Origin: Candidatus Mediterraneibacter surreyensis
Lineage (GTDB): Bacteria; Bacillota; Clostridia; Lachnospirales; Lachnospiraceae
Length of the DNA: 33,867 nt
Assembly: GCA_019118885.1 (NCBI GenBank)
Contig: DWYB01000051.1
Span: 1-33,867 of the forward strand
Direction: 5' to 3'
Under the pieces are notes generated by a model. It was not told where the DNA came from and did no database searches. It saw nothing but the letters and a program-made list of their open reading frames with translations. Below, one piece after another: positions 11,341 through 26,182 of the stretch. Position 1 is the first letter of the stretch. Each line of letters opens with the position of its first letter. The translations under genes and the position numbers were made by a program.

Positions 11341-12192
11341 ATGAACGATTCTGTATTTACTGTATTCCCAAGCGAAAATTTCGTTGATCTGTGCCTGTAC
11401 CAGTTCGGAAGAGAACAGTGCCCGCCCGCTTACTCTTTCGGACCGGCAACGAGAAATCACTATCTCTTTCACTATGTCCTGTCCGGAACCGGAAAACTGA
11501 TCGCCGACGATTCGAAAGGAGAATCGCACGAATATCAGATTCACAGCGGTCAGGGATTTATGATCTTCCCCCGTCAGATCACAACTTATATTGCAGACGA
11601 AAAGCTCCCGTGGGAATACACATGGCTGGAATTTGACGGAATGCGCGCAAGAGAAGTGATTGAAACATCAGGAATGAGCCCGGACCATCCGGTCTATCAC
11701 GCTTCGCATAAAGATCTGCGGGAAAGCATGGCTGACGAGATGACTTACATTTCAGACCATGGAAACTCCTCTTCTTTCCACCTGATCGGACATCTGTATC
11801 TCTTTGTGGATTACCTCGCCCGTTCTTCCGCAACTACACAACTTACCTCCGGCGGAAAAGTGCGGGATTTCTATATCAAAGAAGCGCTGAACTATATTGA
11901 ACAGAACTTCCAGAATGATATCACCGTAGAAGGTATCGCTTCTTTCTGCGGGCTGAACCGAACCTACTTCGGCCGGATTTTTAAAGAAACGGTAGGAAAA
12001 TCACCTCAGCAGTTCCTGCTCAACTATCGTATGACAAAAGCTGCAGAACTGCTGAAACTGACTAATCTTTCCATCAGTGATATCGGAAATGCCGTAGGCT
12101 ATCCCAACCAGCTGCACTTTTCAAGAGCATTCAAAAATGTGTTTGGAATATCTCCAAGAGAATGGCGTAATAAGAATCATGTGATGAAATAA
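11341..12192 (+). CDS. AraC-family transcriptional regulator (MsmR/RafR-like)
   Basis: Probable sugar-responsive activator of the divergent alpha-galactoside operon. The 283 residues comprise an N-terminal cupin ligand-binding domain (about 20-165, with HYVLSGTGKL and FMIFPRQ) and a C-terminal double helix-turn-helix (about 180-280), ending with the AraC signature GYPNQLHFSRAFKNVFGISPREWR. AAGGGAGAA lies 7 bases before the ATG. A TATAAT at 11264-11269 is a likely -10 with a poor -35. The stop codon lies directly next to the large inverted-repeat element at 12193-13055. Confidence 0.93.
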   Translation: MNDSVFTVFPSENFVDLCLYQFGREQCPPAYSFGPATRNHYLFHYVLSGTGKLIADDSKGESHEYQIHSGQGFMIFPRQITTYIADEKLPWEYTWLEFDGMRAREVIETSGMSPDHPVYHASHKDLRESMADEMTYISDHGNSSSFHLIGHLYLFVDYLARSSATTQLTSGGKVRDFYIKEALNYIEQNFQNDITVEGIASFCGLNRTYFGRIFKETVGKSPQQFLLNYRMTKAAELLKLTNLSISDIGNAVGYPNQLHFSRAFKNVFGISPREWRNKNHVMK

Positions 12193-13055
12193 ATTTTGAT
12201 TTTTCGGACTGAATGCCAATGGGACAAGGTCCGAAACCAGACGGAGACGAGGCAATGAAATACTTTTTAAGATAACCGGCATGTGCTTCAGGCTCCGCTC
12301 CGTAATTCGGGGAAAATTAAAGGTTCTGAAAGCTGACTAAAAGCAAAGTCTGAAAATGGGAAACTCGTCTTCGACTCAAACACCCCATTTTCAGGCTTAA
12401 CGTCATCATTCAGAGCCTTAACTTTTCCATCGAATTACTTCGAAGTTGCCTTCCTCACATACCAGTCATCTCTTTAAAGGCTTTCAATGCCTCGTCTCCA
12501 TCTGTTTCTGCTTTATCGGATTCGGCAGCCAGTCCGACAAATATGAAAGCTAAAGAAACCGGTTAAAGGGGTAAATAATAGAGAAGAAGTTATTTATTGG
12601 TTTGGCGGAGAACCGTTTCCGGTTATGGAGATTTCTGGTTCCGCTTGTTCGTTTTATATCTGCAGAGAACATCCCGTGTCAAGCCTGCGAAGCACCTGTT
12701 TATAGGCAAGGGCTTGACACGGGATCTTCCTGCAGATAAATATTAATCAAGCGGACCTGAAATCAATTCGGCTCGAATTCGAACCGACAGATCAACAAAT
12801 CCTATATCGGCCGAAACAATGAGATCATAGTCGGGGAAGTCGCTTCTTCTACCCGTATGCATGAGAATTTTCGGAATGGGAAAGAAAGCAGCCGGGAGGC
12901 AGGTATTGCGTACGCACCGTTGGAGCAGCGTCGATACTTAGAGCGCGTCTTTTGCGCTCTTATGTACCGCTACGCTGCGACCGAATGAAAATGTGTGCGT
13001 TAGCAATACCTGCCTCCCGGCGGATACTTTATCAGTCCGAAAAATCGGAATTTTC
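12193..13055. ncRNA. Large nested inverted-repeat element, candidate structured RNA of about 850 nt
   Basis: This gene-free stretch between two convergent stop codons is almost entirely made of long complementary arms. Closing stem: 12198-12212 with 13032-13046, 15 perfect pairs. Inside it, in order: a long rod (12233-12260/12482-12508, then 12263-12285/12456-12479, 12302-12309/12431-12438, 12311-12329/12410-12428, 12348-12360/12384-12396); a small hairpin (12557-12562/12619-12624 with 12572-12578/12590-12596); a second rod (12630-12647/12748-12764, 12657-12665/12730-12738, 12671-12685/12711-12725 perfect); a near-palindrome at 12768-12787; and a third rod (12891-12909/13003-13021 perfect, 12925-12931/12972-12978, 12940-12946/12954-12960). 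No long open frame is found. AATTTT lies at each outer edge (12192-12197 and 13049-13054), so a transposed element with terminal repeats is the alternative. The strand is undecided, with a slight preference for minus. Confidence 0.6.
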
Positions 13056-13535
13056 TTAAACCAGCTCTATCGCCTGTTTCCCCGACAGATGTTCTATCGC
13101 CATCTCCAGCATGCATAGCGGCTTCCATTCCCGTTCGATGGCTTGATCCCGGTTTTCGGCTGTGTCATCAGGGGCATATTTAACCGCCAGCTTTTCAATG
13201 GCAGAGCGTTTCTCTGTGTCGTCTTCCACAATGCGTATTCTGCCGAAAGCGATGACGCTGCGGAAGTATGTAGTATATTCTGCCGGCACGATCTGATCCT
13301 GATCGATGACACAGAATGAAGCTTTGGCATTTTTTAACATGGCGTCGATCTTATGACCTCTTTTTGCACTGTGGAACCAGAGCTTCTCACCGTCATAGAC
13401 ATAACTTACGGGCACTGCATAGGGGTAACCGTCATCTCCATGGAGAGCCAGAACTCCTGATGTTCCATTGTATAATATACTGTCACATTCTTCTTTTGAT
13501 AATTTCTGCTTTTTTCTGCGCATTTCGCGAAACAT
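13056..13535 (-). CDS. Pyridoxamine 5'-phosphate oxidase-fold flavoprotein
   Basis: A 159-residue split-barrel protein of the PNPOx-like/NimA-like group, expected to bind FMN or F420-type flavins. The family signature is seen in GVLALHGDDGYPYAVPVSYVYDGEKLWFHSAKRGHKIDAM (residues about 30-70) and in SFCVIDQDQIVPAEYTTYFRSVIAFGRI. Similar proteins are often annotated as nitroimidazole-resistance proteins, but the substrate is unknown. Start at 13535 has GGGAGGAAA upstream. Its stop codon touches the structured element, and transcripts reading past the stop would enter that element. Confidence 0.88.
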   Translation of the reverse strand: MFREMRRKKQKLSKEECDSILYNGTSGVLALHGDDGYPYAVPVSYVYDGEKLWFHSAKRGHKIDAMLKNAKASFCVIDQDQIVPAEYTTYFRSVIAFGRIRIVEDDTEKRSAIEKLAVKYAPDDTAENRDQAIEREWKPLCMLEMAIEHLSGKQAIELV

Positions 13536-17285: not shown

Positions 17286-17439
17286 TATAATCACTGTCGA
17301 AATTGATGAATTGCGCAGACTGTGGGAAATGGAATGAGGAATTGATTGGATGGAGAAAAAAGACTGGAACCTAGAAAGTGCCAAGGGCACTGGTCAGACG
17401 GGCTGGAAAAGAGCTTAGAGAATTCAGATGAGCTCTGTA

Positions 17440-17856
17440 TGGCAGAAGGAAGGGGGAAATTCCGTCATGTACGGTTCGGGTATTCGCCGGATAAAATTCT
17501 GATGAACAACATCAGTTTCACGGCACAGCCGGGGCAGAAGATCGCTATTGTCGGAAGTACAGGCGCGGGTAAGACTACGCTTATCAATCTTCTGATGCGG
17601 TTCTATGAGGTAAACGGCGGACAGATTTTTCTGGACGGCAGGGATACGGCAGATATGACATATGAAGATCTGCGGAGCAATTTTGGTATGGCGCTGCAGG
17701 ATACATGGCTTTTTGACGGCACGATCGCGGAGAACATCGCATATGGATGCCCGGGTGCTTCCCGGGATGAAATACATCATCGAACAAGGTGACCACAGAG
17801 GACTGCTGAAAGCCGGCGGAGCCTATGCAGAACTGTATAACAGCCAGTACGCATAA
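17440..17856 (+). pseudogene. ABC exporter ATPase fragment with internal deletion
   Basis: The first part (17440-17790) encodes an ABCB-type nucleotide-binding domain start: FGYSPDKILMNNISF, Walker A GSTGAGKTTL and a Q-loop ALQDTWLFDGTIAENIAYG. It then breaks at PGASRDEI. A second frame from 17767 gives the last 29 residues of such a protein (IIEQGDHRGLL..GGAYAELYNSQYA). About 120 residues holding the signature motif, Walker B and H-loop are absent, and the membrane domain is also missing. The joint lies at CGGGATGAAA, where both parts overlap. It cannot encode a working ATPase. Confidence 0.85.
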
Positions 17857-26111: not shown

Positions 26112-26182
26112 AGGGGATTGGTCAAATGGTATGATAGGGGTCTCCAAAACCTTTGGTGGGAGTTCGATTCTCTCATCCCCTG
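26112..26182 (+). tRNA. tRNA-Trp (anticodon CCA)
   Basis: The cloverleaf is complete. The acceptor arms AGGGGAT and ATCCCCT pair over 7 positions. The anticodon loop is CTCCAAA on a 5-bp stem containing G-U pairs. The T arm GGGAG-TTCGATT-CTCTC and the discriminator base G fit bacterial tRNA-Trp. The 3' CCA is not encoded. Confidence 0.95.

Follow-up and report, generated by a model that had tools for sequence, protein, structure and literature searches.

Among described systems, the closest to the element studied here are the repetitive extragenic palindromes (REPs) and bacterial interspersed mosaic elements (BIMEs) with the RAYT transposase (TnpA_REP), the miniature inverted-repeat transposable elements (MITEs), the attC sites of integrons, and the large RNAs of the OLE, GOLLD, ROOL, and HEARO classes. 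Our element occupies positions 12193–13055 of a 33,867-nt stretch of DNA, hereafter the window, from the lachnospiraceal bacterium Candidatus Mediterraneibacter surreyensis (assembly GCA_019118885.1, contig DWYB01000051.1). It is assembled, mosaic-like, from three hairpin rods (A, M, and B) that recur jointly or singly in the genome and the genus. The data support a dispersed, modular, non-coding element that is selected for its folded shape and tolerated near gene ends.

With REPs and BIMEs the element shares its dispersal as intergenic palindromes, often after genes, its mosaic build, and its lack of coding capacity. REPs are described, in part of PMC3733652, as 20 to 40 bp long and tagged by GTAG or CGTC, whereas the rods studied here measure approximately 180 to 350 nt and carry several conserved loops. 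Terminal inverted repeats, multiple copies, and the absence of coding recall MITEs; here, however, the internal fold is selected, target duplications of 4 nt or more are lacking in the best set of copies, and a search that was not systematic found no cognate transposase. The large RNAs resemble the element in size range and rod-like complexity. They differ in that the element has no Rfam match, is a multicopy mosaic, and has few wobble pairs. Compared with integron attC sites, the rods are longer and their loops are conserved in sequence. At most, the two would work alike, since the identity of attC is placed, in part of PMC2727003, in the shape of the folded strand, with the stems free to vary. 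No description of the hairpin repeat family was found in a literature search by loop strings and by titles and the beginnings of abstracts. One section of a study of human microbiomes (PMC8040213) reports 3161 candidate RNAs, of which 250 are palindromic, and the family might be among these.

The element fills the gap between two convergent open reading frames (ORFs), one ending at 12192 on the plus strand and the other at 13056 on the minus strand, and no ORF of at least 100 aa overlaps it. It may itself begin with the AA of the TAA at 12190–12192. The original prediction, which proposed a new large structured RNA, had likewise set the boundaries at the ends of the flanking genes and seen no long frame. 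The nested inverted repeats on which it was built are real: a search with seed 9 and length 12 returned seven pairs, counting a short overlapping palindrome. The outermost joins 12191–12212 to 13032–13053 (22 nt, 91%), and others measure 27, 32, and 19 nt (93, 84, and 95%, respectively). RNA folding gave −366.9 kcal/mol for the plus strand (shuffle mean −237.7, z −17.65) and −381.1 kcal/mol for the minus strand (shuffle mean −234.6, z −18.59), with 0 of 20 shuffles as good in either case, and a fold of the plus strand with DNA parameters gave z −15.52. Seven pairs fall short of the "at least a dozen" first counted, though numerous short helices appear in the predicted fold, and the statement that almost no sequence is left unpaired was generous, as the centroid fold leaves several open stretches. 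An Rfam scan of the whole window at the thresholds of the database itself matched a tRNA at 26112–26182 alone, and a lenient scan of 12150–13100 returned four subthreshold matches to unrelated families (E up to 5), which agrees with the original prediction in that it had recognised no motif of the ornate RNA classes. Of the proposal as a whole, the structure and its novelty to Rfam stand, but the rods occur separately in a variable mosaic and do not form a single closed RNA of 850 nt.

The modular build is apparent from the copies. In its own genome the element has 44 matches, a figure that counts certain places on both strands, and BLASTN found it in at least 42 of 99 genomes (own included) and 2 of 38 genera, with five candidates scored per genome. 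The matches fall in blocks corresponding to approximately 1–375, 409–572, and 675–863 of the element, which occur alone, together, or in other arrangements; the center of rod M is missing from two copies in the genome of the window (on C33 and C72). Covariance models built on rod A reached further. Model R1 matched 19 of 397 genomes in the family search (17 of 334 genera sampled, own included). In the genus search, model R2 matched 48 of 58 genomes, with at least 58 matches in the richest and none in the other 10, and at class level it matched 20 of 391, own included. A more complete search returned 68 matches in genome G043, 17 in G055, and 56 in G607. From G043, 20 copies were fetched, 19 of them with both ends; these are 812 to 963 nt long, share 90 to 97% best identity, and lie at different sites. 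The rod B loop was found in 66 named records. Thirty of these are titled Mediterraneibacter; the rest are mostly uncultured Lachnoclostridium or Ruminococcus and include a few chance matches.

That such matches are chance or assembly artefacts, ordinary palindromes that happen to carry a common hairpin loop, is hardly credible. It is true that several copies lie near contig ends in draft genomes and that, outside the family, the class-level R2 matches are strong in G607 alone (5.6e-13), the others ranging from about 1e-4 to 1e-8. However, G607, with its 56 matches, is a single-contig genome, and the covariation described below exceeds its controls. In addition, 19 loci of the class search were read, 17 of which lie outside the family, and 18 of the 19 have the apical motif of rod A or a close variant.

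BLASTN of phage and plasmid sequences with the element gave no match. A scan for the 19-nt apical loop in viral contigs yielded 60 stretches, mostly without a surrounding hairpin as judged by eye. Model R1 was run on 49 of these and matched two loci weakly, L235 and L249; a third, L236, looks family-like by eye and was unmatched by R1 at a threshold of E 0.01. As a separate observation, the 19-nt loop AACTCGCTTCGCTCAAACA occurs in phage-like contigs (L225, L227, L230, and others), where its surroundings seem non-palindromic; two of these sit in groups of 13 and 12 records.

When copies of rod A are aligned by the apical motif, the internal loops are constant and the surrounding stems are unrelated. 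In alignment A1 (28 rows), 37 of 39 pairs show changes on both sides. In alignment A5, whose 42 rows include two antisense self-hits that were kept for the covariation count, all 40 of 40 pairs covary, with both sides changed and pairing kept; the covariation score is 0.956, compared with 0.12 to 0.16 for slid structures and 0.23 for shuffles. Compensatory change in the stems among homologues, which the original prediction had proposed to look for, is very strong. Identity is 76% in unpaired columns, 18 of 52 of which reach at least 90%, and 58% in paired columns, where 1 of 80 does. Distant copies share, with variation, the series GTTTC, TAAG, GCTAAAAGC, AACTCGCTTCGCTCA(A/G)ACA, AACGC, CTAAG, and TGCAAAT, and have nearly perfect stems that are otherwise unrelated in sequence. 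The outer sequences, too, differ between lineages while the internal loops are kept. Read on the minus strand, 72 of the 104 copies with an apical triloop have GNA there, and 62 of 136 copies have GAA. These triloops follow the rule given, in part of PMC4686876, for extraordinarily stable DNA mini-hairpins, namely a GNA or GNNA loop closed by at least two G–C pairs.

Rod B behaves similarly. Of 45 loci found, 10 were dropped as chance matches or as incomplete or rearranged, and among the 35 copies used there is compensatory change at 38 of 47 predicted pairs. Its side hairpin, of the form xy-GAAA-yx, is closed by GC/GC in nine copies, GT/AC in seven, AT/AT in four, AC/GT in three, and another combination in one.

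Covariation alone fits a second explanation, a dispersed multicopy family of structured non-coding RNA (ncRNA) that acts as RNA and is most likely made from the minus strand of rod A. The extreme covariation, the conserved loops, and the absence from Rfam would all be expected of such a family. If RNA folding were selected on one strand, G–U should far exceed A–C in the stems, as it does in RNase P of the genus, which served as control: predicted pairs of 15 sequences held 152 G–U, 5 A–C, and 10 other mismatches, isolated stem mismatches were 39, 2, and 5, respectively, and a stricter count of pairs predicted on both strands gave 13 G–U versus 4 A–C. The RNase P sequences had been found with a class-B model below its cut-off; all 16 were confirmed as class A, and one (L184), for which an incorrect stretch had been extracted, was left out. 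A control with nine tRNAs was not used, their register being uncertain. In rod A (A5 without the antisense rows, 40 of 42; 1580 cells), there are 34 G–U, 37 A–C, and 48 other mismatches. Isolated mismatches in the broadest set, 25 rod A hairpins of other genera, number 13, 17, and 43, respectively. The arms of rod B hold 17, 29, and 20, and the rod B pairs predicted on the plus strand alone hold 77 G–U and 16 A–C. Because wobble is scarce in comparison with RNase P of the genus, pairing seems, on this sequence evidence, to be constrained mainly in DNA; stems that lack the strong G–U preference of RNase P imply that the covariation reflects a folded nucleic acid and not specifically RNA. Several sets do show a wobble excess on the minus strand, and the side loop of rod B looks GNRA-like by eye, which speak for RNA, whereas the balanced broadest set, the modular build and variable length, the occurrence of both orientations next to co-directional genes, and the lack of a promoter-like site inside the element speak against it (the region 11900–13300 holds one such site, versus 2.0 expected). 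On balance we regard the ncRNA explanation as unlikely, although it is the main rival.

Copies are often placed between convergent genes. In the genus, the flanks of 21 rod A copies could be classified, 13 of these copies being at convergent sites and 1 at a divergent site; the figures for rod B are 36 and 3 of 59, and for baseline gene pairs without the element 42 and 64 of 313. The rod A copies of this set were found by pattern, and a few loci from unrelated organisms are counted in the baseline and among the rod B orientations. Elsewhere, convergent placement was seen for 7 of 26 copies in other genera and 23 of 47 classifiable copies in G607, where 5 of 47 are divergent. Next to co-directional neighbours, sense and antisense copies number 4 and 3 for rod A and 5 and 15 for rod B in the genus, and 11 and 4 in other genera. 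The flanking proteins shared no family between loci among the 20 of 33 listed proteins that were scanned in other genera, six of which had no Pfam match. The convergent excess, the copies that start directly at stop codons at several sites, and the four terminator-like sites in 11900–13300 (1.3 expected from shuffles) are what one would expect of bidirectional terminators or insulators that became large and were dispersed through recombination. Yet a short hairpin suffices for termination, presence is patchy even within the genus, copies occur at divergent sites, and the terminator explanation does not account for conserved internal loops within free stems; we consider it less probable again than ncRNA.

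The ends of the element were examined in the 19 complete G043 copies, which start close to AAATCTGTATTTG and finish with an approximate complement of it. The 22-nt terminal repeats have zero to six mismatches, being perfect in one copy, and in 14 of 19 a stop triplet (frame not checked) spans the left end. None of the 19 copies is flanked by a direct repeat of at least 4 nt; duplications of 2 to 3 nt were below resolution. Terminal repeats of this quality could belong to conventional MITEs moved by a DDE transposase, and two palindromic copies in genome G027 do contain transposase genes. In one (L160:2866–4155, on the single contig of that genome), a DDE_3 gene, which we take to be of IS630 type, sits midway in a related palindromic element of approximately 760 nt. 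As an autonomous partner this gene was rejected as a nested insertion, locus L165 matching L160 without it. Between two palindromic element copies at L158:124–2355 of the same genome lies a YhgA-like (Transposase_31) gene. The nested DDE_3 insertion, the lack of direct repeats of 4 nt or more in the G043 copies, and the variation of the outer sequences while the internal loops stay constant make a conventional MITE quite improbable, in spite of the terminal repeats, the two genes, and a 5-nt direct repeat at one G027 copy.

A RAYT was also rejected as mover: 20 of 20 Y1_Tnp loci, each of approximately 4 kb, lack an R2 match, and four genomes with the element (G049, G050, G035, and G054) have no Y1_Tnp match. 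Sixteen of the 20 Y1 transposase genes (approximately 255–285 aa; L369–L382, L385, and L388) adjoin hairpins of their own, GGGGACGTAG...CTACGTCCCC, as judged by eye and with both flanks in view for 15 of the 16; these are apparently the REP/RAYT pair of the genus. The remaining loci (L383, L384, L386, and L387) are of another type.

The history of the site was followed through its neighbours. The gene ending at 12192 looks like an AraC-type regulator and the one ending at 13056 like a pyridoxamine-oxidase-like protein ("pdx"), both by reading only. Compared with relatives, the genome of the window has swapped partners: it has AraC–element–pdx in the window and a pfkB-like gene, the element, and a gene X on contig 38 (L002), whereas AraC lies near the pfkB-like gene in G002, G044, G012, and G019, and pdx lies beside X in G057 and G008. 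G044 has yet another neighbour for pdx. Such a swap is what recombination between two copies of 94% identity would produce; a draft-assembly error at the repeat is an alternative. In the convergent pdx/X pair, the gap between matched ends is approximately 28 nt in G008 and approximately 590 nt, with the element, in G057, and further species have elements of other make-up in this pair. In G026 (L126 and L397), the AraC and pdx genes are both followed by the same other hairpin, beginning AAATTCGTTAGGTTAGAATCG, at the contig end.

Orientation relative to replication was assessed in one closed genome, G607, in which a frame that looks DnaA-like by eye stands at the start of the record. The AACTCG strand runs along the leading direction in 42 of 56 copies (p 2e-4). 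Convergent and divergent sites were counted apart because transcription sets no direction there, and at these sites 22 of 28 copies are oriented with replication (p 0.004; 55 of 56 copies examined). This supports a link between the element and replication.

Coordinates of the parts are collected in Table 1, in which the right limit of rod A, both limits of rod M, and the left limit of rod B were judged by eye. Elsewhere in the window, a frame at 17346–17792 resembles, by eye, a truncated ABC-transporter ATP-binding domain.

Table 1. Parts of the composite element in window coordinates.
Feature	Position	Strand	Basis or remark
Whole composite element	12193..13055	.	Inverted repeats; long homologous copies G000:C38 (94%) and G000:C27 (81%) in the same genome
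Left terminal inverted repeat ATTTTGATTTTTCGGACTGA	12193..12212	+	Outer inverted-repeat pair
Right terminal inverted repeat	13032..13055	-	Outer inverted-repeat pair
Rod A, single long hairpin with conserved internal loops, also solitary	12193..12549	+	Separate matches, query ~6-375
Rod A core matched by covariance model R1	12302..12438	+	Present copy among the building sequences of R1
Rod A apical loop AACTC-GTC-TTC-GAC-TCAAACA	12362..12382	+	Minus strand is mini-hairpin GTC-GAA-GAC
CAGTCCGACAAATATGAAAG in rod A	12530-12549		
Rod M (middle), arms 12640-12665/12730-12755 and 12667-12685/12711-12729	~12634..12766	.	Inverted repeats
Rod B, arms 12891-12917/12995-13021, also solitary	12866..13055	+	Inverted repeats; separate matches
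Rod B conserved apical hairpin GAGCGCGTCTTTTGCGCTC	12941..12959	+	
Rod B side mini-hairpin AT-GAAA-AT	12981..12995	+	Closing pairs covary among copies

Taken together, we read the element as a non-coding, non-autonomous interspersed repeat of hairpin rods that is mobile or recombining and whose constraint acts on folded DNA. We put no more weight on this reading than on its negation, and keep multicopy RNA as the main rival, because no enzyme was found. One DNA strand would fold, as hairpin or cruciform, when the DNA is single-stranded, and the constraint would act at that stage. A recombinase or transposase acting in trans may then recognise the folded strand through its loops. Copies would persist where they are harmless, behind stop codons or in gaps flanked by convergent genes, and may exchange modules by recombination among themselves. 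A bolder version, which we offer as a tentative possibility, is mobile DNA found throughout the Clostridia whose identity lies in a folded single strand: a hairpin of approximately 150 to 350 nt with fixed mismatches and loops, free stems, and a DNA mini-hairpin as cap, copied with replication between convergent stop codons and leaving no normal target duplication.

Several observations weigh against the folded-DNA reading. Mobility is inferred from copies and sites; no clean single junction was seen, and the G008 gap cannot be aligned base by base. Neither an enzyme nor an autonomous copy was found, the two nested transposase genes apart, in a search that was not systematic. The 5-nt direct repeat mentioned above occurs at one of seven G027 copies, where 0.12 were expected (0.27 for 4 nt or more), and target duplications of 2 to 3 nt may be present. 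The replication bias places the plus (AACTCG) strand, and not the strand that forms the mini-hairpin, on the lagging-strand template, and the apical loops in G607 are mostly AAA, not GNA. Furthermore, isolated mismatches read on the plus strand lean toward A–C, with G–U:A–C ratios of 9:23 in 28 hairpins of the genus, 9:24 in 42 hairpins of G607, 5:8 in 10 of G043, and 4:39 in 32 from G036, G002, G025, and one locus of the genome of the window; the sets overlap in genomes and include paralogues, and hence are not independent. Such strand-leaning sets correspond to wobble on the minus strand, and RNA, single-stranded DNA of the minus strand, or biased mutation would give the same picture. Finally, GNRA-like tetraloops such as those of the rod B side hairpin are favoured by RNA as well.

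Rfam has no model for this family, although a single genome of a gut bacterium can contain up to tens of its copies. Shape is kept rather than sequence, so ordinary similarity searches miss it. The repeat coincides with contig breaks in draft genomes and may drive changes in gene order. It also allows a test of whether the folded-DNA elements of bacteria include another class in addition to attC and REP.
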